A stretch of DNA of 30,276 nucleotides from a virus. Both the position numbers and the translations under genes were made by a program. The stretch is taken from IMG/VR virus record IMGVR_UViG_3300032092_000164, positions 1-30,276 of that record. One strand, 5' to 3'. The notes under the pieces were generated by a model. The model was given only the letters and a program-made list of their open reading frames with translations. It did no database searches and was not told where the DNA came from. This document shows, one piece after another, positions 1,063 to 25,501 of this stretch; positions within the stretch are counted from its first letter, which is position 1, and every line of letters begins with the position of its first letter.

Positions 1063-1176
1063 TCTTTACCCGGATTGGTAGAATATAAACAGCGGGTCGA
1101 GTCAGCTCCCCGTAGTATCCGTTCGAGTTAGCTTGGCGGGAATCCATAATCACAAATCAAACAAGGAGTAACAACT
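1063..1176 (+). promoter_or_regulatory. Putative capsid promoter and leader
   Basis: TAGAAT at 1079-1084 preceded by TGG forms an extended -10 box. No convincing -35 is visible. About 90 bases of leader follow, ending with an AAGGAG ribosome site 8 bases before the capsid ATG. The long leader after a terminator is unusual for this compact genome and may give high capsid expression. Confidence 0.5.
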
Positions 1177-2352
1177 ATGTCAGACTTTCTAAAGTCGCAG
1201 GTTGAAGCCCGCAACAACCTAATCGAGCAAGCTCGTACAGTAATCGAGTCAGCCGAAGCGGACAAGCGCGGACTAACCGTAGATGACCAAGCAACAATCG
1301 AGCGTATTGAGAACGAAATTTCTCAGCGCGACGCAGCTATCGAAACCGCTAAGAAAATGGAAGAGCGTGAGGCCCGCGCAATTGACGCAGCTCGCAACTC
1401 TTTCATTCCTTCTAACGAAGTTCGTGGCGACGCAGATATCCTACGCGCAATCGCTAACGGAGAAATGCGTTCACACACATTCGCACCAGAGAAGAGAACT
1501 CTTGTTCCTTCCGACAACCTAGTTCCAAAATCTTTCTACGACGAAGTTTTCAGCGTGGCAAGAATGGCCGGGCCTATGCTTTCGGTTTCTCAGGTTATCA
1601 ATACCGCAGGTGGAGATACTCTAACAATCCCAACCTTGACCGGATATTCAACCGCAACAATCAAGAGTGCTGGTTCTGCTATCTCAGACAGCGAGCCAAC
1701 ATTCTCAAACATTCAGCTATCCGCATTCAAGTATTCCTTCCTAGTCCCAGTAGCAAACGAACTTCTAGTTGACTCTTCACTAGACATTTCTGCGCTAATC
1801 GCGGAGCAGGCCGGAAACGCAATTGGTTTCGGAATCAACACCGGACTAACTGTTGGAACTGGAACTGTAGAGCCTACTGGTATCTTCACAACTGGTTCTT
1901 CAGCGGTAACTGGAGGCACCGGAGTTTCTGGCGCACCGACTTACGAAAATCTGGTCGATTTATTGTACACACTAAATGGTCAAGCCCGTTTGCTCCCCGG
2001 AGTCGGCTGGCTAATGAACAAGACTGGTCTTGCGGCAGTTCGCAAAATCAAGGACGGTTCTGGAGCGTTTATCTGGACAGCCGGAAATATCGCACAGGGT
2101 CAGCCAGACCAGCTTCTAGGCTACCCAGTATACGAGAACCCGGCAGTAACAGACGTTGCCGTAAACAACTTCTCAATCGGTGTAGGCCACTTGCCGTCGC
2201 TGAAGACAAGAATTGCTGGCGGTGTACAGGTGGCACAGTCCGCAGATTACGCATTCAACCAGGACGTAACCACGTTCCGCGTAACTGCTCGCGTGGATTC
2301 AAAATTGACACACGCAAGCCACTTCGTGAAATTCCGCGGAGGCGCAAGCTAA
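1177..2352 (+). CDS. Major capsid protein, HK97 fold
   Basis: The 391-residue protein forms the icosahedral shell. Residues 1 to about 75 are a charged helical segment (scaffold-like delta domain) that the upstream protease would be expected to remove. The HK97-type core follows, with VPKSFYDEVF, the TLTIPTLTG strand, LLVDSSLDISALI and the C-terminal VTARVDSKLTHASHFVKF. The length is typical. The ATG has a strong AAGGAG site. It is flanked by terminators on both sides, giving a monocistronic unit, as expected for the most abundant virion protein. No covalent cross-linking lysine can be assigned by eye. Confidence 0.97.
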   Translation: MSDFLKSQVEARNNLIEQARTVIESAEADKRGLTVDDQATIERIENEISQRDAAIETAKKMEEREARAIDAARNSFIPSNEVRGDADILRAIANGEMRSHTFAPEKRTLVPSDNLVPKSFYDEVFSVARMAGPMLSVSQVINTAGGDTLTIPTLTGYSTATIKSAGSAISDSEPTFSNIQLSAFKYSFLVPVANELLVDSSLDISALIAEQAGNAIGFGINTGLTVGTGTVEPTGIFTTGSSAVTGGTGVSGAPTYENLVDLLYTLNGQARLLPGVGWLMNKTGLAAVRKIKDGSGAFIWTAGNIAQGQPDQLLGYPVYENPAVTDVAVNNFSIGVGHLPSLKTRIAGGVQVAQSADYAFNQDVTTFRVTARVDSKLTHASHFVKFRGGAS

Positions 2353-2380
2353 GCCAAAAGCATTAGCTAACAGACTGGAG

Positions 2381-2427
2381 AGGTCGCCGGACGGTAGGGT
2401 TTCGGCGGCCTTTCCTTTTGTCTTTTT
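2381..2427 (+). terminator. Intrinsic terminator after the capsid gene
   Basis: AGGTCGCCG (2381-2389) pairs with CGGCGGCCT (2403-2411), 9 pairs with one G-U, followed by a T-rich tract (TTTCCTTTTGTCTTTTT). It ends the capsid transcript immediately before the sugar cassette. Confidence 0.85.
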
Positions 2428-2432
2428 GAAGT

Positions 2433-2447
2433 GATAATGTTTTTCTA
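2433..2447 (+). promoter_or_regulatory. Putative leaderless promoter for the sugar cassette
   Basis: GATAAT at 2433-2438 lies 8 bases before the ATG at 2447, with only GTTTTTCT between and no Shine-Dalgarno sequence. Transcription would start at or next to the start codon. Leaderless mRNAs are common in Actinobacteria. The -35 region is not evident. Confidence 0.55.
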
Positions 2448-3658
2448 TGACTCCTACCAAATCAAAGAACCCTGCTAACCGTGAACAGTTCAAAGGAACG
2501 GTTACGCTTTATTCGAATTCGCCCGACCAACCGACGGGCTATGGGCAGCAAGCCCGCTACCTAGTAGACAGATTGAAGCGTCACGGCTTCGATGTCGCTG
2601 CTCTTTCTAACTACGGACTTGAAGGAATCAAACGCGAACTAGAAACGCCTTACGGAAAGATTCCGCACTTCGCCCGGGGCTTCGATATGTATTCGAACGA
2701 TTCAGCTCCGGTAGACCACAAAACTTTTTCAGCTGCTAAGCCAAACCAACCAAACGCTATGATTACGCTCTACGACGTTTGGGTTCTTACTAATCCAGCG
2801 TTCAACGACATAGATATTCTGAGCTGGGTTCCGCTCGACCACATAACGCTGCCTCCTAGAGTCGAAGAGTTTCTAAAGAAAAAGAAAGTGACTCCGGTTG
2901 CTATGGCTCCGCACGGAGTTAGACAAATAGAAGCTAAAGGGATTGAGTGTAAATACGCACCGCACGGAATAGACACTAAAGTTCTAAAGCCGACTTATGA
3001 AATAAATGGACAATCGGTAGAAGAACATATGGGAACTAAAGACCGCTTCGTTGTAGGAATGGTAGCCGCAAATAAAAGTTCGGGCCTAGTCCACCGCAAA
3101 GCGTTCTCAGAAAATCTACTTGCCTTCTCTATCTTCCAGAAGAAGCACCCCGACGTTATGCTCTATCTTCACACCGACCCAGTTTCTAAAGGTATTGGCT
3201 GGAATCTGGTTTCGCTTCTTCAAAGCTTGGGCGTAGATAAGAACGACGTTGCCTTTCCAAATCCGTTTAGTTATCGCTACGGAATCCCGCAGGAAACTCT
3301 AGCCGGATACTATACAGGAATGGACGTTCTTCTAGCGACGTCTTACGGAGAAGGCTTCGGAGTGCCGTCGGTGGAAGCGCAAGCCTGCGGAACCCGAGTT
3401 ATTGGTTCTTCTTGGGCAGCTACTCCAGACCTTCTTTCTGAAGATTCTTTCCTAGTGGAAGGTCAGCCTTCTTGGGATTCAGGGCAGGACGCGTGGTGGC
3501 AGATTCCGAACGTGCCTTCAATCGTTGCCGCTCTCGAAGAAGCTTACAAGCTAGGCAAGGGCCGTTCACAAGTAGCAATCGACTTCGCTTCAGACTTTGA
3601 CGTGGATAAGGTTTGGACTAAATACTGGTTGCCGATTCTTCGCGAGAAATTCGCCTAA
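2447..3658 (+). CDS. Glycosyltransferase, GT4-like (GT-B fold)
   Basis: A 403-residue glycosyltransferase of the retaining GT-B type. The N-terminal Rossmann half has PTGYGQQARYL, typical of the acceptor side. The C-terminal half carries the donor-binding signature GEGFGVPSVEAQACG near residues 301-315, the E-x7-E motif of GT4 enzymes. No membrane segment is present, so it acts in the cytoplasm. It is the first gene of a three-gene cassette (TAATG overlap with the next) inserted between capsid and head-tail connector. A plausible job is to add sugar to virion proteins during assembly, or to phage DNA or host envelope. Substrate cannot be read from the sequence. Confidence 0.9.
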   Translation: MTPTKSKNPANREQFKGTVTLYSNSPDQPTGYGQQARYLVDRLKRHGFDVAALSNYGLEGIKRELETPYGKIPHFARGFDMYSNDSAPVDHKTFSAAKPNQPNAMITLYDVWVLTNPAFNDIDILSWVPLDHITLPPRVEEFLKKKKVTPVAMAPHGVRQIEAKGIECKYAPHGIDTKVLKPTYEINGQSVEEHMGTKDRFVVGMVAANKSSGLVHRKAFSENLLAFSIFQKKHPDVMLYLHTDPVSKGIGWNLVSLLQSLGVDKNDVAFPNPFSYRYGIPQETLAGYYTGMDVLLATSYGEGFGVPSVEAQACGTRVIGSSWAATPDLLSEDSFLVEGQPSWDSGQDAWWQIPNVPSIVAALEEAYKLGKGRSQVAIDFASDFDVDKVWTKYWLPILREKFA

Positions 3659-4302
3659 TGATTCCAGTTCTAGGATTCGCAACTTACAGTCAATTCGACT
3701 TAGCTAATCGGCTTCTAGATTCGATAGATTATCCGGTAGAGAACTTGGTAATCGTAGATAATTCTGGACTAAAGACTTGGGAACCGAAGCAACCGGAGCA
3801 GGTAAAGAATCTATGGCTTATACGAGTTCCCTTCGGACTCGGGCTTGTAGGTGCTTGGAATCTCATAATCAAATCGACACCTTACGCGCCTTACTGGGTT
3901 CTAGTAAATGACGACGCTTGGTTTGAAGCTGGAGCGCTAGAAATAATTGCGCGGGACGTAGACCCGGACGCTATGAACTTCGTAGACATTATTCCCGAAT
4001 GGTCGTGCGTTGTATTTGGAGAAGGCGCAATAGCTAAGGCTGGACTTTATGACGAACGTTTCTATCCGCTCTACTTCGACGATAACGACCTTCAGCGCAG
4101 AATGGAAAAAGCTGGGGTAAAGGTTCATAAAATACAAGCCGGAGTGAATCATCAAAATTCTTCTAGCCTTGAAGGTAAGAGAAAAGAAAATGACCGAACC
4201 TACGAAGCTAACCGAAAGCTAATGGATAAGAAAGTTATCGAGAATGACTTCTCCCCGGGCTACTGGGACTTGACTATTCGAAGGGCTAACCGTTGGGACT
4301 AA
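3658..4302 (+). CDS. Glycosyltransferase, GT2-like (GT-A fold)
   Basis: A 214-residue short GT-A enzyme. The N-terminus (PVLGFATYSQFDLANRLLDS) and VIVDNSG are the usual nucleotide-binding start. LVNDDAW near residue 84 supplies the DxD-like metal and nucleotide-sugar site, and FDDNDLQRRM near residue 140 matches the acidic motif with the expected catalytic base. NHQNSSS follows. It overlaps the preceding gene by one base and the next by ten, so all three are translationally coupled. It probably adds a second sugar, or starts the glycan that the GT4-like enzyme extends. Acceptor unknown. Confidence 0.85.
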   Translation: MIPVLGFATYSQFDLANRLLDSIDYPVENLVIVDNSGLKTWEPKQPEQVKNLWLIRVPFGLGLVGAWNLIIKSTPYAPYWVLVNDDAWFEAGALEIIARDVDPDAMNFVDIIPEWSCVVFGEGAIAKAGLYDERFYPLYFDDNDLQRRMEKAGVKVHKIQAGVNHQNSSSLEGKRKENDRTYEANRKLMDKKVIENDFSPGYWDLTIRRANRWD

Positions 4303-4712
4303 CCGTTTACACCGGGGGAACGTTCGACCTTTATCATTCGGGCCACGCTAACTTCTTAGCTCGTTGCGCCGAGTTAGGACAGGTAGTAGTTTCTCTAAAC
4401 ACGGACGAATTTATTGAAGCTTACAAAGGCAAGCGTCCAGTCATTAGCTACGAAGAAAGACGGGCAGTTCTTCTTTCTTGTCGTTCGGTATCAGAAGTAA
4501 TTCCTAACTACGGCGGCGCAGATTCAAAGCCCGCTATTGAAATGACGGCTCCAGACATTCTTGCGATTGGCTCAGACTGGGCAAGGCGCGACTACTACGC
4601 GCAAATGGGATTCACTCAGGATTGGTTAGACGACCGCGGAATCTCTCTAATCTACATTCCCTACACCGCTGGAATCAGCTCGACCGCCATAAAAGCCCGA
4701 CTGGTAAGATAG
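4293..4712 (+). CDS. Cytidylyltransferase-fold nucleotidyltransferase (TagD-like)
   Basis: A 139-residue HxGH nucleotidyltransferase. GGTFDLYHSGH at residues 8-18 holds the HxGH catalytic motif, RPVISYEERRAVLL is the usual second motif, and ISSTAIKARL is the ISSTxxK/R-type motif that closes the active site. Length and motifs match glycerol-3-phosphate cytidylyltransferases and related sugar-phosphate nucleotidyltransferases. The only fitting start is TTG at 4293, overlapping the GT2-like gene by ten bases. With two glycosyltransferases it would provide an activated CDP- or ADP-linked donor. Which substrate it uses is not decidable here. Confidence 0.85.
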   Translation: MGLTVYTGGTFDLYHSGHANFLARCAELGQVVVSLNTDEFIEAYKGKRPVISYEERRAVLLSCRSVSEVIPNYGGADSKPAIEMTAPDILAIGSDWARRDYYAQMGFTQDWLDDRGISLIYIPYTAGISSTAIKARLVR

Positions 4713-4714
4713 AA
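4705..4714 (+). promoter_or_regulatory. TARRATAGAA promoter-like motif before the connector gene
   Basis: TAAGATAGAA preceded by TGG gives an extended -10 box (TGG-TAAGAT). It overlaps the stop of the nucleotidyltransferase gene and precedes the AAAGGA ribosome site of the connector gene. It lets the head-tail genes be transcribed independently of the sugar cassette. It is one of six matches to this motif on the + strand. Confidence 0.55.
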
Positions 4715-4733
4715 ACGAACAAAGGAAAATCTT

Positions 4734-5330
4734 ATGGCAATCGTAAACGGATATTGCTCACTCGCAGAAATCAAAGCTTCGGCTCGGATTACCGATAGCG
4801 TAGACGACGCTCTGCTAGAGCTTGCGGTCGAATCAGCTTCCCGAATGGTGGATAGCTACACCCAACGCTACTTCTACAACGCTGGAACTGCGACCCGTCT
4901 ATTCGCTCCGCAGGATTCTTACGTTGCCGAAATTGACGACCTAATTTCTTTGACGACTCTTCAGACTTCCGACGGCGACGACTTCGGCACAACTTGGGCC
5001 GCTAAGGATTATCAGCTAGAGCCACTAAACGGAAACGTGGACGGTCTTACAGGACACCCAGCTACCCGTATAAGAGCCGTAGACGACTTTATCTTCAACG
5101 TCCTAGACGGAGAAGCAACCGTTCGCGTTGTGGGCGTCTGGGGCTGGTCAGCGGTTCCAATCGCGGTAAAGCAAGCAACAATCATTCAGGCCGCAAGAAT
5201 TTTCAAACGTAACGATTCGCCTTTGGGTATCGCCGGATTTGGCGAAATGGGAGCCATCCGCGTGGGCGTTCAACTTGACCCGGACGTGAAGCACCTAATC
5301 GACGTTTACAGAAAAGTTAGATTCGCCTAA
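4734..5330 (+). CDS. Head-tail connector protein, HK97 gp6-like
   Basis: A 198-residue adaptor that would form the ring below the portal. The N-terminus (CSLAEIKASARITDSVDDALLELAVESASRMVDSYTQRYFY) is the helical gp6-like region, followed by a beta domain and the C-terminal WSAVPIAVKQATIIQAARIFKR helix typical of this family. It starts at ATG after AAAGGA and overlaps the next gene by one base (TAATG). Confidence 0.88.
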   Translation: MAIVNGYCSLAEIKASARITDSVDDALLELAVESASRMVDSYTQRYFYNAGTATRLFAPQDSYVAEIDDLISLTTLQTSDGDDFGTTWAAKDYQLEPLNGNVDGLTGHPATRIRAVDDFIFNVLDGEATVRVVGVWGWSAVPIAVKQATIIQAARIFKRNDSPLGIAGFGEMGAIRVGVQLDPDVKHLIDVYRKVRFA

Positions 5331-5737
5331 TGGCTTCGATTACCGACCTACGCGCCGGACTCGCTGCCGCCATTGGAACTATCTCCGGGCTGAGAACTAC
5401 CACCGAAACACCGGACACAATCTCCCCGCCTATCTCGATTATCAACGTCGCCAGCGTCAATTATGACAAGGCTGGTTCCCGGGGACTAGACGAATACAAC
5501 TTCGTCATTACTTGTATCGTTGGACGCGTGGGAGAAAGAACCGCGCAAAGACTTCTCGATTCTTACGTGACTCCAGCCGGGAGTTCATCAGTAAAGCTTG
5601 CGATAGAATTAGACAGGACGCTCGGTGGGAGATGTGATTCTCTCCGAGTTACCGATATGCGGAACTACGGCTCCATTGTGATTGGCGAAGTTACCTATCT
5701 AGCCGCTGAATTCAACGTCGTAGTTTACGCACAATAA
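5330..5737 (+). CDS. Tail terminator / head-tail joining protein
   Basis: A 135-residue alpha/beta protein (ITDLRAGLAAAIGTISGLRTTTETPDTISPP... ending YLAAEFNVVVYAQ). The layout, an N-terminal helix, a PPISII strand and a C-terminal antiparallel strand, matches tail-terminator proteins of siphoviruses. Its position between connector and major tail protein is where that gene normally lies. The call rests mostly on gene order and length. Confidence 0.7.
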   Translation: MASITDLRAGLAAAIGTISGLRTTTETPDTISPPISIINVASVNYDKAGSRGLDEYNFVITCIVGRVGERTAQRLLDSYVTPAGSSSVKLAIELDRTLGGRCDSLRVTDMRNYGSIVIGEVTYLAAEFNVVVYAQ

Positions 5738-5768
5738 AACCGCTAGGAAAATAGGAGAAACAAAACAA

Positions 5769-6179
5769 ATGCCAAAATATGTAGTTATCAACCCAAAGGT
5801 CACAATCAACGGTGGAACAGTTTCAAGTTCCGTCGCTGCCGCAACTCTAGAGCTAACCTCTACCGATATTGACGTGACCAGCTTTGGTTCAAACGGCTGG
5901 ACAGAAATTATCGGTGGACTAAAACAGGGAACAGTATCCCTAGACTTCCACAGCGGATACGCCGCTGGTGAAATCAACACCGTTCTAAACCCGCTACTTG
6001 GAACAATCGCAACCGTCACAATCAACCCGAACGGAACCGTAACGTCTTCGTCTAACCCTGCGTGGACTGCGCTTGTTCACGTGAACAGCGTTTCCCCAGT
6101 TGCCGGAGCAGTTGGCGACCTTGCGACATTCTCAGTTTCTTACCCAACTTCGGGTTCCGTTACCTTCGCAACCGCATAA
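5769..6179 (+). CDS. Major tail protein
   Basis: A 136-residue Ser/Thr/Val-rich beta protein that would build the tail tube. It begins MPKYVVINPKVTING, has the TDIDVTSFGSNGWTEIIGGLKQG strand-loop typical of tail-tube proteins, and ends FSVSYPTSGSVTF. An AGGAG ribosome site precedes the ATG. It lies directly before the two frameshifting chaperone frames, which is the conserved siphovirus order. Confidence 0.88.
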   Translation: MPKYVVINPKVTINGGTVSSSVAAATLELTSTDIDVTSFGSNGWTEIIGGLKQGTVSLDFHSGYAAGEINTVLNPLLGTIATVTINPNGTVTSSSNPAWTALVHVNSVSPVAGAVGDLATFSVSYPTSGSVTFATA

Positions 6180-6188
6180 GGATAAAGA

Positions 6189-6443
6189 ATGAAACTAACC
6201 CTACGCATTGAGTTCGCAGACGGAACACACAAGGACGTTCTTGTATCGGCTCCCGATATGGTGGCGTTCGAAGACAAGTACGACGTTTCAATAGCAAAAC
6301 TAGACGACCCAAAAATGGGCTGGTTGCTTTTCTTGGCTTGGCATTCTGAAAAGCGCAAGAAGCAAACAGACAAAGAATTCGAAGCTTGGTTAGAACTAGT
6401 AGACGCTATTGGAGCAACAGAAGACCCAAAAGTAACAGAATAG
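6189..6443 (+). CDS. Tail assembly chaperone, short (gpG-like) product
   Basis: An 84-residue acidic protein made when ribosomes stay in frame. It would coat the tape measure protein during tail assembly. Its last codons contain the slippery heptamer C CCA AAA at 6425-6431, so some ribosomes shift -1 and produce the longer gpGT-like protein ending at 6592. Position between major tail protein and tape measure, size and the frame-aligned slippery site together identify it. Confidence 0.9.
   Translation: MKLTLRIEFADGTHKDVLVSAPDMVAFEDKYDVSIAKLDDPKMGWLLFLAWHSEKRKKQTDKEFEAWLELVDAIGATEDPKVTE
6425..6431 (+). promoter_or_regulatory. Programmed -1 frameshift site (C CCA AAA)
   Basis: The heptamer is correctly phased in the zero frame (ga-C CCA AAA gta). 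Both tRNAs can re-pair after slipping to CCC AAA. Slippage extends the protein after residue 81 by 53 residues and avoids the TAG at 6441-6443. I did not establish a downstream pseudoknot. Confidence 0.88.
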
Positions 6444-6592
6444 TCGGACTAGGCGATAGCTCCGCTCATTGGTTCATAGCTTCCCTAGCGGTCGAGTCCG
6501 GAATTCCTCCAAGTGTTTTATTGGAGCAGTCCGACCGAATGCTTTGGACAATGAACAGGTGGCTTGTCGCTAAGAACCTTCCACCGCGATAA
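6431..6592 (+). CDS. Tail assembly chaperone, frameshift (gpT-like) extension
   Basis: The -1 frame entered at 6431 encodes 53 residues starting SNRIVGLGDSSAHWF and ending WLVAKNLPPR, giving a total of 134 residues with the upstream part. SGIPPSVLLEQSDRML resembles T-domain sequences of siphovirus chaperones, which contact the tail tube subunit. It has no start codon of its own that makes sense, supporting expression by frameshift only. Confidence 0.85.
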   Translation, partial: SNRIVGLGDSSAHWFIASLAVESGIPPSVLLEQSDRMLWTMNRWLVAKNLPPR

Positions 6593-6595
6593 GGA

Positions 6596-6627
6596 AGTCC
6601 CCTGCTTCGGCAGGGGCTTCTTTATTT
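6596..6627 (+). terminator. Intrinsic terminator after the chaperone genes
   Basis: CCCCTGC (6599-6605), TTCG tetraloop, GCAGGGG (6610-6616), then CTTCTTTATTT. A compact stable hairpin with a T-rich tail. A TARRATAGAA motif follows within 10 bases. Confidence 0.88.
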
Positions 6628-6635
6628 GGATTCGG

Positions 6636-6645
6636 TAGAATAGAA
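6636..6645 (+). promoter_or_regulatory. TARRATAGAA promoter-like motif before the tail genes
   Basis: TAGAATAGAA after CGG, directly downstream of the terminator and 20 bases before the ATG at 6665. The terminator-promoter pair makes a new transcription unit running through the tape measure and minor tail genes. Confidence 0.6.
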
Positions 6646-6664
6646 GAAAAGAAGGCTGGTTGAA

Positions 6665-7171
6665 ATGCTACGAGTAGATGTTGAAGGCATAGGCGCAACC
6701 GTCAACGAACTAAAAAAGTTCGAACCACAGCTCTTCGCACAAATGAGAAAAGAAATCATAACCGAACCCGGCGTTGCTTCGGTTCTTTCTTCCATAGAGT
6801 CTAAGGTTCCTAAAGTTTCTCCGTTATTTGGAATGCTCCACAACGGAAGAACTCGCTACGTAATTCCTAAGATTAGGACTTACATAAGACCAAGCGCAAA
6901 ACTTGGCAGGGGTGGCACGGAGCGTTCTCTAATCGGCTTCGAAGCAATTTCTCCCGACAACGCGGCAGGTTTTGAGATTCTCGACTTAGTAGGTTCCGGC
7001 CCAGACGCTAACTCTAACAATGCTAAAGGAATGCTAAAGAAACTTCAGGGCAAGGCTTCCCGGTATGTCTGGAAGGGATACGAAGCTAAAAAAGAAGGCG
7101 TATCCGCGGCAGTTCTAGCAATCATCAAGAGATACACAACTAAAACAAACGTGAAGCTAAAGGTAATGTAA
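6665..7171 (+). CDS. Putative minor tail or tail-assembly protein
   Basis: A 168-residue protein (MLRVDVEGIGATVNELKKFEPQLFAQMRKEI...). The N-terminal helix and SPLFGMLHNGRTRYVIPKIRTYIRP stretch recall HK97 gp10-like tail-completion proteins, but the resemblance is weak. The C-terminus is Lys-rich. It overlaps the tape measure start (TAATG) and opens the second tail operon. No firm function. Confidence 0.65.
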   Translation: MLRVDVEGIGATVNELKKFEPQLFAQMRKEIITEPGVASVLSSIESKVPKVSPLFGMLHNGRTRYVIPKIRTYIRPSAKLGRGGTERSLIGFEAISPDNAAGFEILDLVGSGPDANSNNAKGMLKKLQGKASRYVWKGYEAKKEGVSAAVLAIIKRYTTKTNVKLKVM

Positions 7172-9384
7172 TGGCAGTCAGAATACCGATTATCACCGTC
7201 TTCGACTCTAAGGGTTTGAAGCAAGCGCAGTATCAGCTAAACAAAGTCCGTGGCAACTTCCAAGCTCTAGGACGAAACGCTGCTATTGCCGGAGTCGGTA
7301 TTGGAGCGGTCGCCGCAGCTCTAGGTAAGAGCGTCCAGAACGCAGCCGAAGCTCAAAGAATAATGTCGCAGACCGAAGCGGTTCTAAGGTCTACCGGAAC
7401 TACCGCTAATGGAACTGCCGCAGATATCGCAAACCTATCTGAAACTCTAAGTCGTCAAACCGCAGTAGACGACGAACTAATTCAGTCCGGCGCAAACCTT
7501 CTTCTCACCTTCAAGAACATTCAGAATCAGTCCGGGCTAAACAACGACATCTTCAACCAGACAGTTCAAGCAACCCTAGACGTTTCCCGGGCTATGGGAA
7601 CCGACGCAACCACCGAAGCTATCCGTCTAGGTAAGGCGTTGAACGACCCGGTAAAAGGACTCTCTGCCCTAAGCCGAGTTGGTATCCAATTCACCGCGCA
7701 ACAGAGAGAGCAGATAAAAGCTCTCACCGAATCAGGCGACCTTCTTGGCGCGCAGAAGATTATTCTTGCGGAACTACAATCTCAGTTCGGCGGTTCGGCG
7801 CAAGCTTACGCACAAACCTTCGCAGGACAAATAGAGCTTCTTGGAATTGAACTAGAAAACTTCAGCGAAGAAATCGGCGTTATCGTAATGCCAGCTCTTA
7901 GAAGTCTTATGGACGGACTCCGCGAAATGGCTCCGGAGATTGGTTCAAAACTCCGCGACGCAGTAAACTCCGTAGATTGGAAAGCACTAGCTAAAGCACT
8001 TCTCGATACAGCTACTTTCTTTCTTCAGAACGCAGAAGTAATTATCAAGGTTTCCGGTGCGCTCTTCGCTTTGAATACGGCTTACAACCTAATCAAAGTA
8101 ACGCAGGGAATCTACAACGCTATCGCAGTTGTTACTAATACCGTTCTAGGTGGAACCGACTTAGCAGCTAAGAAGGCGACTATTTCACTTGGTTTCCTGC
8201 GCTCCGCTTTGTTATTGAGTGGAATTGGCGCGGCGGTTGTAGCTCTTGGTTTCATAATCGACGGAATCTCAAAGACCAACGAAGGCGCAAGAGCTACCAC
8301 TCCAACCGTCACTAGCTTTGGAAGCGCAGTTCTGAAATCTGGACAAGACGCAGAATGGGCCGCCACGAAATACGGCGCAGCGAAGAGCGCAATCGAAGGA
8401 CTAAACAGCGCGTCGGCTGCGTATAAGCCACCCGTTCTATCAGTTGGCCCAGACGCGGCAGAACGCCGAATGAATCTCGACAAGTCATTCGCTCAAAGCA
8501 GTATGACAAACTTTATGGCTGGTCTTTCCGGAAGCACAAGTAAAAGCGGAACGGCAGAAAAAACTTACTCACAAACTCTAAACGCAGCGGTAAAAAATCA
8601 AAAACTATTTACCAAACTAACTACTAAGAGGGGTATCTCCGAGGGATTGGCGGCAGACCTTCTAGGCGGAACTAAGGGATTGGCTATTGCTAAGAAAATA
8701 GCAAAGGGCAACACGGACTTAGCTACAAGAACTCAAAACAAGTTCAACAAGACCGCCGCAGGTATCGCAGAAATCAAAGCTCAGACCGAAGCAACTAACG
8801 CGCAAATCCTAGCTGACCAACAAGAAGCGGATAGAAAACGTGATGAACTTATTGCTTCAGAAAAAGCAGCTACGGACGAACGCGAAAGAATTTACAAGTC
8901 CTTTAGCGATTCAGTCACTAGCATATTCTCTAGTATCAAAGACTCAATCGTTGGAGCGTTTAGCCTTCCCGAGCTAGGTGGTTCGACAGATTCAATTATT
9001 CGGAATATGGACAAGCTTCTCACCCGGGTAAAGTCGTTCTCGGCTAACATCACAAAGCTATCCGATATGGGACTAAACGCAAATCTTCTACAACAGGTTA
9101 TTCAAGCTGGGCCAGTTGCGGGCGCACGTTTAGCAGCGAGCCTAGTCGCTGGCGGAGCGGACGCTCTAGGACGAATAAACGCGGGCTATGGCGAAATCCA
9201 AACTCTCGGTTCAGAAATCGGTATGACTGGAACTCAGTCAAGATTCAATAACCAAGCGCAACAAAACGTCTACAACATAAACGTAGAAGGCGGAGTTGGT
9301 TCCGGTGCGACTATTGGAAAAGCAATCGTTGACGCTATCAAGGCTTACGAAAGAACTTCAGGCGCGGTCTGGCAGGGCGCGTAA
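7171..9384 (+). CDS. Tail tape measure protein
   Basis: A 737-residue, Ala/Gln/Ser-rich, largely helical protein that sets tail length; at about 1.5 angstrom per residue it predicts a tail near 110 nm. The N-terminal tape-measure region has LNKVRGNFQALGRNAAIAGVGIGAVAAALG, followed by the conserved LGKALNDPVKGLSALSRVGIQF. Two hydrophobic segments lie near residues 290-315 and 343-367 (FLRSALLLSGIGAAVVALGF), typical of proteins that enter the host membrane. No peptidase or lysozyme domain is evident. It overlaps genes on both sides. Confidence 0.95.
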   Translation: MAVRIPIITVFDSKGLKQAQYQLNKVRGNFQALGRNAAIAGVGIGAVAAALGKSVQNAAEAQRIMSQTEAVLRSTGTTANGTAADIANLSETLSRQTAVDDELIQSGANLLLTFKNIQNQSGLNNDIFNQTVQATLDVSRAMGTDATTEAIRLGKALNDPVKGLSALSRVGIQFTAQQREQIKALTESGDLLGAQKIILAELQSQFGGSAQAYAQTFAGQIELLGIELENFSEEIGVIVMPALRSLMDGLREMAPEIGSKLRDAVNSVDWKALAKALLDTATFFLQNAEVIIKVSGALFALNTAYNLIKVTQGIYNAIAVVTNTVLGGTDLAAKKATISLGFLRSALLLSGIGAAVVALGFIIDGISKTNEGARATTPTVTSFGSAVLKSGQDAEWAATKYGAAKSAIEGLNSASAAYKPPVLSVGPDAAERRMNLDKSFAQSSMTNFMAGLSGSTSKSGTAEKTYSQTLNAAVKNQKLFTKLTTKRGISEGLAADLLGGTKGLAIAKKIAKGNTDLATRTQNKFNKTAAGIAEIKAQTEATNAQILADQQEADRKRDELIASEKAATDERERIYKSFSDSVTSIFSSIKDSIVGAFSLPELGGSTDSIIRNMDKLLTRVKSFSANITKLSDMGLNANLLQQVIQAGPVAGARLAASLVAGGADALGRINAGYGEIQTLGSEIGMTGTQSRFNNQAQQNVYNINVEGGVGSGATIGKAIVDAIKAYERTSGAVWQGA

Positions 9385-10631
9385 TGGCAGCTCCAGCTAT
9401 GAAGGTCGAACTAGGTCTTGACTTAGGAGGAAACGACCCGTTTGCTTTTCGATTAGACGACGCCGTAAAAGGTGTTCTTGACAACACGGATTTCACACTA
9501 GGCGGAACGAAGCTCTTTGACATTTCTTCCCGTCTTGTTTCCGTCGCCGTCCGTCGAGGAAAGTCCCAAGCTCTCGACCGCGTGGACGCTGGAGTGGCGA
9601 CAATTACGGTGGACAACTTCGACCGACTCTTTGACCCGCTCTACGAAGCCGGACTTTATTACGGGCAGCTTATCCCCCGGCGTGAGGTGGTTATTAGCTC
9701 TAATAATTACCCGGTCTTCAACGGCTTTATCGACGACTTCGATATTCAGTATGAACCGGGAAAGAAGTCGGTGGTTTCAATAGCGGTTTCGGACGCCTTC
9801 TCCGTTCTAGCTAACTCTTCTCTCGACGAATTAGTTCCCCCAAGCGAACTAGCAGGAGCAAGAATTGAACGCGTTCTAGACCTTCCTGAAGTTGGCTGGC
9901 CTACTGCCAGAAGAGAGATAGACCCGGGAAATACCCTAATGCTTGATTCCGTAGTTACTGAAGGCACGGGAACACTTACTTATCTTCAGCTTGTAGAAAC
10001 TAGCGAGTTCGGAACTATCTTTATTTCACGCGAAGGCAACGTAGTCTTTAGGGAAAGAAACTCCGTCCCAAACGTTATCGACGTAGTCTTTGCCAATACA
10101 ACAGTAGACCCGCTTCTTACTGCCATTCCTTTTATCGACGTGAACATTGTCTACGGTTCTGAGAATCTTTACAATCGTATTCTTCTAGAAAATGACGAAG
10201 CTATCCCAGACCAAGGATTCGCGGAAGACCTAGACAGTCAAGCTCTCTACGGTGTTCGCGTTTATGACAAGTCCGGGCTGCTAGTCCAGAATCCCGCAGA
10301 CCTTCAGTTTCTATCCGACTTCTTACTAGCGCGATTCAAGCAACCGCAATACCGATTCGAAACCGTGACCGTATCGCTAGACAACATTTCAGCCGAACAA
10401 CAGAACCTAGTCTTAGACTTAGAAATCGGCGACATTGTTCAAGTCAAGTTCTTGCCTTCGGAAGTTCCCCCGGCTATCGAGCAGTATTGCCGGGTAATCG
10501 GTATAAACAATAGCTGGGACAATAACAGTAAGAACATAACCTTCAGCTTGGAGCGCCTAGACTTCGCAATCTTTATACTAGATGACGCCGTTTTGGGTGT
10601 CCTAGACGACGACCGCCTTGCTTACGAGTAA
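9384..10631 (+). CDS. Minor tail / tail hub protein with duplicated end motif
   Basis: A 415-residue protein right after the tape measure, the usual place of the distal tail or hub protein. Residues 24-33 (LDDAVKGVLD) recur almost exactly near the C-terminus as residues 399-408 (LDDAVLGVLD), nine of ten identical. Between them are regions typical of hub proteins: DRVDAGVATITVDNFDRLFDPLY, LIPRREVVI and YRFETVTVSLDNIS. It probably sits at the tail tip and links tube to fibres. Exact structural role is inferred from order. Confidence 0.8.
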   Translation: MAAPAMKVELGLDLGGNDPFAFRLDDAVKGVLDNTDFTLGGTKLFDISSRLVSVAVRRGKSQALDRVDAGVATITVDNFDRLFDPLYEAGLYYGQLIPRREVVISSNNYPVFNGFIDDFDIQYEPGKKSVVSIAVSDAFSVLANSSLDELVPPSELAGARIERVLDLPEVGWPTARREIDPGNTLMLDSVVTEGTGTLTYLQLVETSEFGTIFISREGNVVFRERNSVPNVIDVVFANTTVDPLLTAIPFIDVNIVYGSENLYNRILLENDEAIPDQGFAEDLDSQALYGVRVYDKSGLLVQNPADLQFLSDFLLARFKQPQYRFETVTVSLDNISAEQQNLVLDLEIGDIVQVKFLPSEVPPAIEQYCRVIGINNSWDNNSKNITFSLERLDFAIFILDDAVLGVLDDDRLAYE

Positions 10632-10638
10632 AATAGAA
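10629..10638 (+). promoter_or_regulatory. TARRATAGAA promoter-like motif before minor tail gene
   Basis: TAAAATAGAA overlaps the TAA stop of the hub gene and lies 20 bases before the ATG at 10658, with a CATAAGGAAAAC ribosome site between. It could drive the tail fibre and lysis genes. Confidence 0.55.
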
Positions 10639-10657
10639 GAAAGACATAAGGAAAACA

Positions 10658-11047
10658 ATGCCTAGAAAAACCTTTACCGCTGGAGAAGTCCTAGCGGCAG
10701 CCGACGTCAATTTATACCTAAGCAACGAAGTCAATCTTGCTACTAGCACGGCGACCACCTACACCGTTCTTCCGGGCGACCGCTACGAAACTCTAGTCTT
10801 CACCGCAGCTTCAGCCGTGACCGTGACAATCGGAACCGCTACCGCTTTTCAAGCCGGAGAAAGAATCGACATTCTCCAAGACGGAGCTGGAACCGTAACC
10901 ATTACCCGCGACGGAACCGCAACTACTTTATCTGGACGCGGAACTGCTGGAACCGCTTACAAGATTGGTCAGCGTTATGACGCTGTATCTGTTGTCTGTG
11001 TGGCTTCTAACTCTTACCGCATTATTGGTAACGCAACGGCGGTCTAA
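10658..11047 (+). CDS. Minor tail protein
   Basis: A 129-residue Thr/Ala/Val-rich beta protein. The opening MPRKTFTAGEVLAAADVNLYL is a recurrent N-terminus of actinophage minor tail proteins. The rest (GERIDILQDGAGTVTITRDG...) looks like a short beta-rich attachment or connector module. It overlaps the glycine-rich gene by one base (TAATG). Confidence 0.8.
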   Translation: MPRKTFTAGEVLAAADVNLYLSNEVNLATSTATTYTVLPGDRYETLVFTAASAVTVTIGTATAFQAGERIDILQDGAGTVTITRDGTATTLSGRGTAGTAYKIGQRYDAVSVVCVASNSYRIIGNATAV

Positions 11048-11829
11048 TGACTCTCTCAGCGTTAGGTATTTATTCGGCGGCAGGTGTTATTGCTGCTTTT
11101 TCTCTTGACGCACTTGTGGTCGCTGGTGGCGGTGGCGGTGCAGTTGGAGGAGGCGGTGCCGGAGGTGCAAGAAGTTTTACTGACATATCGGTAAACCAAG
11201 GTTTAAATTACGCAATTTCTATTGGTGCAGGTGGAGCTGCCTCTGCTAATGGTGTCAACTCCTCTTTTTCAACATTTAGCTCCTCCGGAGGAGGAAGTGG
11301 TGGACAGGCTGTGGCTGGTGGTACTGGAGGTTCTGGAGGTGGTCGAGGTAACTCTGCTGGTTTAGGTGGGGCAGGAAACGTAGGGGCTTATTCTCCAGTT
11401 GAAGGATTTGATGGTGGAGGTGCAACAGGCAGTTCTAATTCTGGTGGTGGTGGAGGTGCAAGTGCTATCGGAGGAACTGGAGCAGGAAACACTGGTGCAG
11501 GTGGTGGAGCGGGTATAACTTGGGAGTCTACTCAGTATGCTGGTGGCGGTGGTGGAGCTGGTTCTTCTGCTGCAGGTGCAGGAACTTTTGGTGGAGGTAA
11601 TGGTGCGGTTAACACCCCTAGTGCAGGCACAACTAACACTGGTGGTGGCGGTGGTGGTTCTTGGAATCAGGCCGGTGCTAATGGAGGTTCTGGTGTGGTG
11701 AGACTTAAATACCCAGATAGCAGAACAATTACAATCGGAGCAGGTTTAACAGGCTCAACATCAGCTCCGTCTGGTGGGTTTAAGATTACAACAATTACAC
11801 TTGGTTCTGGGAATGTGAGCTTTACATAA
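11047..11829 (+). CDS. Glycine-rich tail fibre / receptor-binding candidate
   Basis: A 260-residue protein with an Ala/Leu N-terminus (MTLSALGIYSAAGVIAAF) followed by LDALVVAGGGGGAVGG and long Gly-rich tracts to about residue 220. It ends with GGSGVVRLKYPD and a Ser/Thr tail. This is the glycine-rich domain common in phage tail fibres and adhesins, which can fold as packed polyglycine helices bearing variable loops. Codon use differs from neighbours: Gly is mostly GGT, whereas GGA is common elsewhere, and TGCA is frequent here but nearly absent in the rest of the genome. Recent acquisition is likely. Confidence 0.8.
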   Translation: MTLSALGIYSAAGVIAAFSLDALVVAGGGGGAVGGGGAGGARSFTDISVNQGLNYAISIGAGGAASANGVNSSFSTFSSSGGGSGGQAVAGGTGGSGGGRGNSAGLGGAGNVGAYSPVEGFDGGGATGSSNSGGGGGASAIGGTGAGNTGAGGGAGITWESTQYAGGGGGAGSSAAGAGTFGGGNGAVNTPSAGTTNTGGGGGGSWNQAGANGGSGVVRLKYPDSRTITIGAGLTGSTSAPSGGFKITTITLGSGNVSFT

Positions 11830-12188
11830 TGGCACACTACGCATTTTTAGACAGCAACAACATTGTCACTGAGGTCATTACTGGAATTGACGAAACTGAA
11901 CTTATTGAAGGTCTTGATACTGAAACTTGGTATGGCAACTTTCGAGGTCAGGTTTGTAAGAGAACCAGCTATAACGGAAAAATTAGAAAAAATTATGCAG
12001 GTATTGGCTTTACTTATGACTCTGAGCGTGACGCTTTTATTCCACCGAAGCCATACCCTAGCTGGCAACTAATCGAACAAACTTGTCAATGGGAAGCCCC
12101 TCTTGCTTATCCAACTGACGGCTTTACCTATTACTGGAACGAATCAGAACTAGCTTGGGAGCTGGCAGACTTCTCGGAGCCTAACTAA
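11829..12188 (+). CDS. Conserved aquatic-phage tail protein
   Basis: A 119-residue protein of a recognisable type found in many marine and freshwater phages, usually near tail fibre genes. It starts MAHYAFLDSNNIVTEVI, then KRTSYNGKIRKNYAGIGFTYD, DAFIPPKPYPSW and a final YPTDGFTYYWNE. It probably caps or decorates the tail fibre; no enzyme motif is seen. It starts at a TAATG overlap with the glycine-rich gene and shares part of that gene's T-rich composition. Confidence 0.75.
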   Translation: MAHYAFLDSNNIVTEVITGIDETELIEGLDTETWYGNFRGQVCKRTSYNGKIRKNYAGIGFTYDSERDAFIPPKPYPSWQLIEQTCQWEAPLAYPTDGFTYYWNESELAWELADFSEPN

Positions 12189-12433
12189 TGGCTGAGGAAA
12201 CAACTGGGGTACGCATCACCCAGCAAGCAATTTACGCCAAGCAACTTGAACACGGGGAAACCCTTGTCAAGATTCTTGAAAAGCTCGACCACCTAGACGA
12301 AGTACCTAGTCGTCTTCGAGAAGTCGAACTAACCCTTGCCCGGTTAGCTTGGATTGAGAAAATTGCTTACACCGGACTCGCAGCAGGAATTACCGGACTA
12401 GCTTCGGCTTTATTTTCTCTTCTTGTAAAATAG
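12188..12433 (+). CDS. XhlA-like lysis-associated membrane protein
   Basis: An 81-residue protein with an N-terminal amphipathic/coiled-coil region (QLEHGETLVKILEKLDHLDEVPSRLREVEL) and a single C-terminal membrane segment (AYTGLAAGITGLASALFSLL). This layout matches XhlA-type holin accessory proteins. It directly precedes the endopeptidase gene. Confidence 0.65.
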   Translation: MAEETTGVRITQQAIYAKQLEHGETLVKILEKLDHLDEVPSRLREVELTLARLAWIEKIAYTGLAAGITGLASALFSLLVK

Positions 12434-12438
12434 AACTA
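12426..12438 (+). promoter_or_regulatory. TARRATAGAA motif giving a leaderless lysin transcript
   Basis: TAAAATAGAA at 12426-12435. If TAAAAT is the -10 box, +1 falls about 7 bases after it, on the A of the ATG at 12438. No Shine-Dalgarno sequence fits between. This would give late, independent expression of the lysis enzyme. Confidence 0.6.
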
Positions 12439-12929
12439 TGCGCTTTCCCTTTGACAAACCAATCCCTAGAATCTCTTCGCCTTATGGTTGGAGAATTCAC
12501 CCGATAGAGAAAACCCGCAAGCACCACAACGGCGTCGATTACGCGGTTGAAATTGGTCGCCCGGTTCGAGCTATTGCTAACGGAAAAGTTATTTACGCTG
12601 GGCCTTCAACAATCAAGTTCCCTAACGGTGAACCTGCCGGGGCTGGATACATTGTTCGACTCAGCCACAAGATAAACGGGGAATGGATTACGTCGTCTTA
12701 CTATCACTTGAAAAAAGGCTCTATAAAAGACGCAGAAATCAAAGTTGGCGACGTAGTTTTTGAAGGCGAGAAACTAGGCGAATCTGGAAATACCGGAGAA
12801 TCTACCGGGCCACACCTTCACTTCGAGATTCAGCGCGGGAAGCGTTACGTCTACACAAACAACGGAACCCGCTTCACCGAACCGACTAGCTACATAAAAA
12901 CCCAAATAGCTCTAGACAAGCTAAAGTGA
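12438..12929 (+). CDS. M23 peptidase endolysin
   Basis: A 163-residue zinc metallopeptidase of the LytM/M23 family that would cut peptidoglycan cross-bridges. The zinc ligands are visible as H30-x3-D34 (HHNGVD) and H130 in GPHLHFE, with H128 of the HLH motif and H92 (YYHL) as likely catalytic residues. The protein is nearly all catalytic domain: no signal peptide and no cell-wall-binding domain. It depends on a holin from the neighbouring membrane proteins for export. Probably leaderless (see 12426). Confidence 0.92.
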   Translation: MRFPFDKPIPRISSPYGWRIHPIEKTRKHHNGVDYAVEIGRPVRAIANGKVIYAGPSTIKFPNGEPAGAGYIVRLSHKINGEWITSSYYHLKKGSIKDAEIKVGDVVFEGEKLGESGNTGESTGPHLHFEIQRGKRYVYTNNGTRFTEPTSYIKTQIALDKLK

Positions 12930-13198
12930 AAATCTTTGACGCTCTAATGCTTCTTCGGGAACAAGAAGGCGAAGACACTTCTGGCCCGTCTTGGAAGTAT
13001 CGCCGGAAACTAATCTATGGCGGTTATCGCTTGGGCTTCGTTATGATTATCTTCGGAATGGGAACCTTCTTTTTTGACAAAGAAGTATCCGTCCAGCTTG
13101 TAATCGGCGGGGTAGCTCTTATCTCGATTATTCTTACCGCGTACACGGCGTCTGCTACCTTTGAAGACGTGAACCTATACAAGAAAGAAGAAGAATAA
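12926..13198 (+). CDS. Two-segment membrane protein of the lysis cassette
   Basis: A 90-residue protein starting at GTG inside a GTGA overlap with the endolysin stop. Two hydrophobic segments, LGFVMIIFGMGTFFF and LVIGGVALISIILTAYTASA, are separated by a short charged loop, and the C-terminus is acidic (EDVNLYKKEEE). Holin or antiholin is likely from topology and context; sequence similarity is not recognised. Confidence 0.65.
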   Translation: MKIFDALMLLREQEGEDTSGPSWKYRRKLIYGGYRLGFVMIIFGMGTFFFDKEVSVQLVIGGVALISIILTAYTASATFEDVNLYKKEEE

Positions 13199-13383
13199 TG
13201 TTGAACCTTCAACCAGCCACTCGTAAATGGATTTACGGAATTGTTGCCGCAACCGTTCCGCTACTCATTAGCTTGGGAACAATCACTACCGAACTAGGCG
13301 CGCAGATTCTAAACGTGGCCGCAGCTCTACTAGCAATCGGTGGTTCTGCTCTAGCTATTACTTACGTCCCCGACGAAGAGTAA
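13198..13383 (+). CDS. Holin
   Basis: A 61-residue protein with two membrane segments (IYGIVAATVPLLISLGTIT and ILNVAAALLAIGGSALAI) after the short N-terminus MLNLQPATRKW, ending TYVPDEE. Length, segment spacing and acidic tail match small actinophage holins. Overlaps the previous stop (TAATG). Its last 22 bases overlap the 3' end of the opposing WhiB-like gene. Confidence 0.75.
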   Translation: MLNLQPATRKWIYGIVAATVPLLISLGTITTELGAQILNVAAALLAIGGSALAITYVPDEE

Positions 13384-13643
13384 CGCTCCGCTTCAGTAGT
13401 GCCTCCCCAAATCCCCGCAACCCGGGTAGACTTGGCATAGTCCCGGCATTGTACCCGAACTGGGCAATTCTGGCAGATACCTTTGGCTATTTCTTCTACT
13501 AATTTCTGGCTGATTTGGCTTGCTTCTTGGGCAAAGAACACGTCGGGCAGTTCTTCGCACTCGACCGAGCCGACCTTTCGAATCGCTTCGTGAAGTTCTA
13601 GGTAATTGCGCTCAATTCCCAATAATTGTCGTAGGGTAGTCAT
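13362..13643 (-). CDS. whiB: WhiB-like Fe-S transcription factor
   Basis: A 93-residue Wbl protein, the only minus-strand gene. Four cysteines (C29, C57, C60, C66) in the C-x27-C-x2-C-x5-C arrangement bind a [4Fe-4S] cluster; CPVRVQCRDYA and the turn GIWGG (77-81) that contacts sigma-A are intact. The family is restricted to Actinobacteria and their phages. Phage Wbl proteins (for example TM4 WhiBTM4) can inhibit host WhiB function, so this may redirect host transcription. The gene runs toward the lysis operon, overlapping its end, and is divergent from the recombination operon. The ATG lies 8 bases after a GATAAG box with no ribosome site, suggesting a leaderless message. Confidence 0.93.
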   Translation of the reverse strand: MTTLRQLLGIERNYLELHEAIRKVGSVECEELPDVFFAQEASQISQKLVEEIAKGICQNCPVRVQCRDYAKSTRVAGIWGGTTEAERYSSSGT

Positions 13644-24339: not shown

Positions 24340-24846
24340 ATGAAAATCGAAACCCTACAAATCAAAGACCTAACGCCCGACCCAGCTAACGCTAGGCAAC
24401 ACGACGAAAAGAACCTAAAGGCGATTCAAGGTTCCCTAAAAAACTTCGGTCAGCGTAAGCCCATAGTCCTAAGCGAAGGGGGCGTAATCGTTGCTGGGAA
24501 CGGAACCGTCGAAGCGGCGAAGCGTTTAGGGTGGCTAGAGATTCAAGCCGTTAGAGTCCCGGGCGACTGGACACCAGAGCAGACTAAAGCCTTCGCTCTA
24601 GCGGATAACCGAACCGCCGAACTAGCAACTTGGTCGCCTGAAGTCCTAGCTAGTCAGTTGCTCGAACTAGAGGAAGCTAACTTCGTAATCGAAGACTTCG
24701 GTTTCGTAAAACTCAATCCGGCGGAACTTCCCGAAGACTTCTTCGCTGGTGCTGAAGCTCCACGGCTAGACGAACGGACAGCGATTACCTGCCCTAACTG
24801 TCTTTCTGAGATTAGAAAAACTTCTAAGGGTTATGAAGTTGTTTGA
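24340..24846 (+). CDS. ParB/Srx-like protein with zinc ribbon
   Basis: A 168-residue protein with a ParB N-terminal-type domain: LTPDPANARQHDEKNLKAI, FGQRKPIVL, GGVIVAGNGTVEAAKRLGW and ALADNRTAELATW. The C-terminus carries a short zinc-ribbon-like CPNC. In phages this domain often accompanies DNA-modifying enzymes, and here it overlaps the Mom-like gene by 14 bases. It could use CTP, bind DNA or direct the modification enzyme; which is unknown. Confidence 0.88.
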   Translation: MKIETLQIKDLTPDPANARQHDEKNLKAIQGSLKNFGQRKPIVLSEGGVIVAGNGTVEAAKRLGWLEIQAVRVPGDWTPEQTKAFALADNRTAELATWSPEVLASQLLELEEANFVIEDFGFVKLNPAELPEDFFAGAEAPRLDERTAITCPNCLSEIRKTSKGYEVV

Positions 24847-25501
24847 AATAAAGCTAGTAAACCAGCAAGCCGCTTTATTTGCCGTAAAGAATTGGCACTA
24901 CTCGAAGAGCATTCCGGCTTCAAAGCTGGTTAGATTCGGCGTATTCGAAGAAGATAAATACATTGGCGTAATAATCTTTAGCCGCGGAGCCTCCCCATTC
25001 CTCGGCAATTCTCTCGGATTAGACCAAACTGAAGTATGCGAACTAACGAGAGTAGCCCTAACGAATCACAAAACCCCGGTCAGTCAGTTAGTAGCTCAAT
25101 GCCTAAAGAACCTAAAAGAACTAAACCCGGGACTTCGTTGCGTTATTAGTTTTGCTGACCCAAAGGAGGGACATAAGGGAGGAATCTATCAAGCTGGAAA
25201 CTGGCTATTTACCGGAGCTAGTAATTCAGTAGTCGAGTATTTTATAGGCGGTCGTTGGATGCACACTAGAAACGCTTATAACTTACCCGAAAGACCCTTT
25301 GCTCCTAGTCGAGTTAGTCCCGGAAAGTTTCGCTACATTTACCCGCTAGATAAGCAACTTCGTAGAAAGGTGGCTAAACTAGCCTTACCCTATCCAAATG
25401 CGGTCGAGGGCTTAGAGGTAAGCCACGGGGATTCCGTTTCCGAGGTGCTGGTTCAATCCCAGCCGACCGCTCCAACTTCGTTAGCTGTCAAGCCCCTTTA
25501 G
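24833..25501 (+). CDS. Mom-like DNA modification protein (GNAT fold)
   Basis: A 222-residue protein with the Mom/GNAT layout: KNWHYSKSIPASKLVRFGVFE, CELTRVAL, VISFADPKEGHKGGIYQAGNW and GRWMHTRNAYNL. Phage Mu Mom converts adenine to a modified base that resists restriction; many phages carry similar genes next to ParB-like ones. Substrate specificity here is unknown. The conserved part ends at LALPYPN; the final 33 residues are encoded by DNA that folds as a tRNA-Gly (25400-25474), so the ORF may read through a tRNA gene. Confidence 0.85.
   Translation: MKLFEIKLVNQQAALFAVKNWHYSKSIPASKLVRFGVFEEDKYIGVIIFSRGASPFLGNSLGLDQTEVCELTRVALTNHKTPVSQLVAQCLKNLKELNPGLRCVISFADPKEGHKGGIYQAGNWLFTGASNSVVEYFIGGRWMHTRNAYNLPERPFAPSRVSPGKFRYIYPLDKQLRRKVAKLALPYPNAVEGLEVSHGDSVSEVLVQSQPTAPTSLAVKPL
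25400..25474 (+). tRNA. tRNA-Gly(UCC), overlapping the Mom-like ORF
   Basis: The 75 bases fold as a full cloverleaf: 7-bp acceptor (GCGGTCG with CGACCGC), D arm GGCT-8-AGCC with GGTA in the loop, anticodon arm CGGGG-ATTCCGT-TTCCG (anticodon TCC, U33 present, two G-U pairs), 4-base variable region, T arm GCTGG-TTCAATC-CCAGC, then T73 and encoded CCA. G1, C2, G3, U73 and C35-C36 fit tRNA-Gly identity. Base 8 is A and base 14 is T, the reverse of the usual U8-A14 pair. GGA, its codon, is heavily used by this phage. Confidence 0.85.

Follow-up and report, generated by a model that had tools for sequence, protein, structure and literature searches.

Glycosylation of virions has been described for a small number of mycobacteriophages, and what it serves in nature is an open question. 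According to two sources that cite Freeman 2023, the phages Che8, Corndog and Myrna glycosylate their capsid and tail tube with glycosyltransferases (GTs) of their own (PMC12363180; PMC12619734), and glycosylation of the Che8 capsid has been reported (PMC12363180; PMC11256854). Chloroviruses likewise put glycans on their own capsid protein (PMC4691112; PMC7826918). The report on Pontimonas phage phiPsal1 (MG835450), the nearest named relative of the phage described here, leaves the phage genes undiscussed (PMC6106888).

The window analysed in this work, the whole 30,276-nucleotide stretch of IMG/VR record IMGVR_UViG_3300032092_000164, is a complete circular phage genome, since its two ends carry the same 127 bases, and its genes follow the standard order (terS, terL, portal, protease, capsid, connector, tail). 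A match of the tail-tube ORF to colicin M (E 0.004, below the cut-off) was discarded as spurious because PHROGs name this ORF major tail protein. A WhiB-like gene encoded in the window and the relationship to phiPsal1, with which most core proteins share 41-61% identity, point to an actinobacterial host. The window also encodes a Mom-like DNA modification protein, adjoining a ParB-like protein and a tRNA-Gly gene.

The slot between the capsid and connector genes contains three overlapping genes, described in the first-pass annotation as GT4-like, GT2-like and TagD-like, and the ORFs, the profile matches and the structural models of both GTs agree with this description (Table 1). GT4 and GT2 overlap by 1 nt, and GT2 and the nucleotidyltransferase (NT) by 10 nt. 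The composition of the cassette is like that of the neighbouring genes (GC 45-50%). Comparison with five relatives gives dN/dS values of 0.03-0.16 for the three genes, a sign of purifying selection on each, and the active-site motifs of their products are kept across 37-47 relatives, so that the intact genes GT4, GT2 and NT look as if they encode working enzymes.

Table 1. Positions of the features of the window discussed in the text.
Feature	Position	Strand	Remarks
Terminal direct repeat, 127 bp	1-127 and 30150-30276		Record opened inside the protease gene
Extended -10 motif TGGTAGAATA upstream of capsid gene	1076..1085	+	Same class as the motifs before GT4 and connector
HK97-type major capsid protein	1177..2352	+	PF05065 6e-52, PHROG 10
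Terminator-like hairpin 3' of capsid gene	2377..2415	+	15-bp stem, 9-nt loop CGGTAGGGT, T-rich tail to ~2427
Extended -10 motif TGATAATGT, predicted leaderless promoter of GT4	2432..2440	+	6 nt before GT4 ATG
GT4-family glycosyltransferase, GT-B fold	2447..3658	+	403 aa; near-core gene of the slot
GT2-like glycosyltransferase, GT-A fold	3658..4302	+	214 aa; exchangeable
TagD/HldE-type nucleotidyltransferase (NT)	4293..4712	+	139 aa, TTG start; exchangeable, only together with GT2
Connector -10 motif TGGTAAGATA	4702..4711	+	Overlaps NT stop codon
gp6-like head-tail connector, bounding the slot on the right	4734..5330	+	PF05135 7.5e-6, PHROG 442
Second terminator hairpin (CCCCTGCTTCGGCAGGGG)	6599-6642		GTAGAATA lies between it and the gene at 6665; motif kept in 21/29 relatives
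Mom-like DNA modification protein	24833-25501		PHROG 1384, 4e-53

GT4 matches PF13692 (6e-8; 33.4 bits, cut-off 27) and PHROG 2170 (2e-38). Its AlphaFold model (pLDDT 92) resembles retaining GT-B enzymes in the PDB, including MshA, BshA and PimB', and the best fold match is the chlorovirus NY2A protein B736L (3oy2; TM 0.73-0.75), followed by MshA and others. The E-x7-E motif noted at first corresponds to E302/E310, of which E310 is invariant and E302 kept in at least 90% of 38 relatives. The GT-B fold, the Glycos_transf_1-type Pfam match and this motif place the protein in the GT4 family. A GT of the same PHROG 2170 occurs in Microbacterium phage Magritte (L221, 6010-7140), between the tail terminator and the major tail protein and so likewise among virion genes.

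GT2 matches PHROG 29879 at 1e-27, and its score against PF00535 (E 0.009, 16.4 bits) is below the curated cut-off of 23.3. The AlphaFold model (pLDDT 94) finds GT-A glycosyltransferases in the PDB with E values of about 1e-8. The supposed DxD-like motif is really NDD; across 47 sequences D86 and D142 are invariant and D144 nearly so, and D86 and D142 would represent the metal-binding Asp motif and the catalytic base, respectively. Fold and Asp residues thus agree with the GT2 family despite the low Pfam score. The ORF that follows GT4 in Microcystis phage Mae-JY09 was considered as a GT2 and rejected.

NT belongs to the cytidylyltransferase-like superfamily (PF01467, 1e-16) and the HxGH motif listed in the first-pass annotation (H15, H18) is invariant among relatives. 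The best single-domain match of known structure was the cytidylyltransferase domain of Fom1 (74 bits), TagD being next (65); ethanolamine-phosphate cytidylyltransferase gave 78 bits, spread over two domains. The NCBIfam models rank TagD (TIGR01518, equivalog; 78.2 bits, cut-off 165.4) above the heptose-1-phosphate adenylyltransferase HldE/RfaE (TIGR02199; 66.1 bits, cut-off 181.5), both far under their curated cut-offs, and PHROG 7878 bears the HldE name. NT keeps the HxGH of the TagD signature, reads YTAGISST where TagD has RTEGISTT, and contains an extra conserved stretch, RDYYxQMGFTQDWLD, absent from TagD. The sub-threshold TagD score and the altered RTEGISTT segment, together with the absence of a CDP-glycerol transferase gene among the genes examined, leave the glycerol phosphate suggested initially unsupported, and the sequence comparisons single out no substrate. 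Homologous trios were not found consistently linked to host envelope genes, the refutation foreseen at the outset: two peptide patterns retrieved four NT relatives from 84,980 bacterial and archaeal genomes. One of these four, on a contig binned as Lokiarchaeota (L137), lies within a run of glycan genes (3042-13504) comprising GT, epimerase, methyltransferase, WecB-like and sulfotransferase-like ORFs in addition to the same NT family, after a possible virion-protein ORF; this run is perhaps an archaeal virus glycan island.

The first-pass annotation had described the cassette as insulated by a terminator, a leaderless promoter and a downstream promoter motif, which holds by comparison with relatives. 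The hairpin after the capsid gene (shuffle z -3.9) was overlooked by a simple terminator scan because of its loop size. It is present at this position in 132 of 132 distinct relatives with unlike stem sequences; at the capsid 3' ends of L005-L216 the stem varies freely and the loop variants are TTGTAGGTT, GCGTAG and CGGTAGGGT. A MAFFT alignment of the hairpins displaces the two loop types relative to each other. The loop contains GTAGG in 94/132 distinct relatives versus 3/398 hairpins elsewhere in the same contigs, and its conservation suggests a site for a bound factor or a processing signal. An Rfam scan matched a tRNA only and assigned this hairpin to no family. As the hairpin also stays in phages that have no GT4 (L208, L209), it is an element of the capsid gene and not of the cassette.

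For GT4, a TANNNT motif 5-7 nt ahead of the start codon occurs in 31 of 47 distinct upstream regions versus 0/35 for capsid and 0/49 for NT genes, a placement that argues for a leaderless promoter, and TGNTANNNT precedes the gene in 35/59 relatives; comparison thus supports the predicted leaderless, late-class promoter of GT4. The connector motif, as GTARRHTA, precedes 37/60 connectors and, in 21/29 cases, one further late gene, versus 0-5% of most genes. It is kept whether GT2 and NT, another pair or GT4 alone stands before it, and is itself leaderless in several distant relatives. The count of the promoter motif over the whole window is not above chance, and what supports it is solely its conserved position among relatives. 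Because the motif before the gene at 6665 is likewise conserved, the late genes seem to be divided among several small transcription units.

The content of the slot was surveyed by three IMG/VR searches, with GT4, with NT and with the capsid protein, the last without selecting on sugar genes. About 200 contigs were compared; as these were the top scorers and do not represent independent samples, the following fractions hold for this lineage only. GT4 lies at most 1.5 kb downstream of the capsid gene in 63 of the 65 capsid-first contigs with at least 2 kb downstream, and in 55 of 57 fully visible slots. The remainder of these 57 slots consists of GT2 and NT (34), GT2 without NT (11), GT4 only (6) or a different GT4-like/GT2-like pair (4), with one empty slot (L208); a few also hold an epimerase, an MptE-like protein, a SAM methyltransferase or a UDP-glucose dehydrogenase. 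NT is always accompanied by GT2 (34/34; Fisher p=2e-6, related contigs being treated as independent). The tie of the sugar genes to the virion module is supported, as 54/54 GT4-first and 79/80 NT-first loci adjoin the capsid or the connector gene. At this site in relatives GT4 is nearly constant but the full trio is not, and a phage with its own NT, initially regarded as unusual, is common in this lineage. The proposal of a self-contained pathway was also too strong: the trio includes neither a kinase nor a sugar-modifying enzyme and varies among relatives, some of which have GT4 by itself, and the locus must therefore draw on sugar nucleotides of the host.

TG1, Samora and Baybae, which are more distant but have related capsids, carry no sugar gene at the slot position. 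In ten contigs (L079, L080, L081, L109, L111, L124, L188, L195, L197 and L205) minus-strand ORFs separate GT4 from the post-capsid hairpin; the ones that were scanned or read encode HNH endonucleases and may be homing elements that aid cassette exchange. The slot of L014 holds a small uncharacterised ORF. Relatives with as little as about 50% identity still have the capsid C-terminus F(K/R)GGAS, a candidate exposed tail. It was rejected as an acceptor marker since phages without GT4 in the slot have a similar capsid end (VGAAT in L208, VGGAS in L209) and Vibrio phage Baybae ends alike in NAAS; the GGAS tail is therefore no proof of an acceptor.

Among near relatives the flanks are 91-98% identical and the cassette differs. 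The identity of L012 to the window is 97% for the capsid, 98% for GT4, 80% for GT2, 52% for NT and 98% for the connector, and L008 carries, like L012, an NT of another subtype (52%). L023 has a GT2 at 51% and no NT, L021 contains an unrelated GT pair before a connector at 97%, and in L036 and L041 nothing beyond GT4 precedes connectors at 91-92%. Module exchange within fixed borders is the pattern of diversifying surface-glycan loci.

In the mechanism that we propose, the cassette would be transcribed from its own leaderless late-class promoter just past the capsid terminator. GT4 probably places the first sugar, taken from a host sugar nucleotide, on a virion protein, most likely the capsid (or tail), and GT2 would then add a second residue to the glycan. 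The donor of GT2 would be supplied or activated by NT as a CDP- or ADP-linked sugar, polyol or similar small phosphate. The predicted promoter of the connector would let the intervening genes be swapped without harm to virion gene expression, and relatives would consequently carry different surface glycans.

A modular virion-glycosylation locus is the best explanation of these observations, with a probability of about 0.6, given that GT4 so constantly accompanies the capsid gene, that the promoter motifs are of the late class and that Che8, Corndog and Myrna offer a precedent. GTs, epimerase, UDP-glucose dehydrogenase and SAM methyltransferase were counted as glycan genes for this reading, and we infer attachment to virions from position only. 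Counting against it, many phage GTs act on DNA or on the host wall, and GT4, having its own promoter, does not require co-expression with the capsid. The chief rival is that the cassette alters a wall glycopolymer of the host surface, masking receptors against superinfection or against virion binding to debris, and that its place in the late region is due to chance or convenience. This is a known role of phage GTs, proposed for freshwater actinophages by the discoverers of Planktophila phages, who suggested DNA or host-wall roles for the GTs of theirs (PMC10202952). Enzymes of the TagD/HldE type usually work for wall or LPS polymers, the Pontimonas host of phiPsal1 is rich in exchangeable wall GTs (PMC6106888), and swapping would fit varied host walls too. 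The strict tie to the capsid-connector slot and the late-class motifs count against it, however, no membrane-bound or lipid-linked step was recognised in the trio, and the two patterns found hardly any NT relatives in cellular genomes, which makes host-wall modification unlikely, if still a serious contender.

It is distinctly less probable that the slot merely receives unrelated cargo genes (morons), with a useful GT4 and partners that are passengers without a joint pathway. The HNH genes between capsid and GT4 in several relatives and the small ORF of L014 would fit this, but the other cargo, apart from a few small ORFs, encodes glycan enzymes or takes the form of similarly sized ORFs without an assigned type, and the dependence of NT on GT2, the strong purifying selection and the overlapping start and stop codons argue for joint function. 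Least probable of all is that the enzymes put sugar on a hypermodified base of the phage DNA as an anti-restriction measure: the window does encode a Mom-like protein, but Mom is not known to add a sugar, the scanned genes of the window included no recognisable base-hydroxylating or hydroxymethylating gene, and the slot goes with the capsid gene and is shared with sugar-nucleotide enzymes. DNA glycosylation by phage GTs is in itself possible (reviewed in PMC12619734).

Extending the virion-glycosylation reading to the lineage, we tentatively propose, at somewhat less than even odds, that a "virion serotype" locus linked to the capsid is widespread among uncultured actinophages, made of a near-core capsid GT and exchangeable, promoter-insulated modules, the commonest of which would make its own nucleotide-activated donor via a phage-specific NT, with glycans swapped by recombination like bacterial O-antigens. 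Antibody shielding cannot explain virion glycans in lake or sea water. Here, almost every member sampled from an aquatic phage group has a glycan locus linked to its capsid gene, with modules that vary among close relatives, and this makes the question of purpose testable: whether swapped cassettes change the virion surface, and whether the benefit concerns grazers, particles, the host surface or host defence.

Several known systems share parts of this organization. The putative GT B736L of chlorovirus NY2A has a viral origin and its fold in common with GT4, at 17% identity and in a eukaryotic virus, and its acceptor is likewise unproven (PMC4691112). The glycerol-3-phosphate cytidylyltransferases TagD/TarD (1coz, 2b7l) and the Fom1 domain (5x3d) belong to the same fold family as NT and agree with it in HxGH and at most of the active-site positions that align, Fom1 reading YTPGISST at the segment that differs from TagD. 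The GT-GT-nucleotidyltransferase trio of the Streptomyces Stanwilliamsviridae Karp and Evy has an NT 53-56% identical to that of the window, adjoining GTs in overlapping genes; it lies away from the head genes, however, and its GTs were ruled out as GT2 homologues, homology being undetectable. In phiPsal1 the same slot has the order capsid, GT4 (50% identity), GT2 (35%) and neck, but NT is absent and a minus-strand SAM methyltransferase gene lies between the GTs. Che8 also has three GT-type genes in a row (gp108-110), located, unlike those of the window, at the right end of the genome away from the capsid; they encode a GT2-methyltransferase fusion, a GT2-like protein and a GT25, with no GT4 or NT, and gave no significant match to the window profiles. 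Judged by this comparison, the locus of the window is not a member of the Che8 system, yet would work like it.
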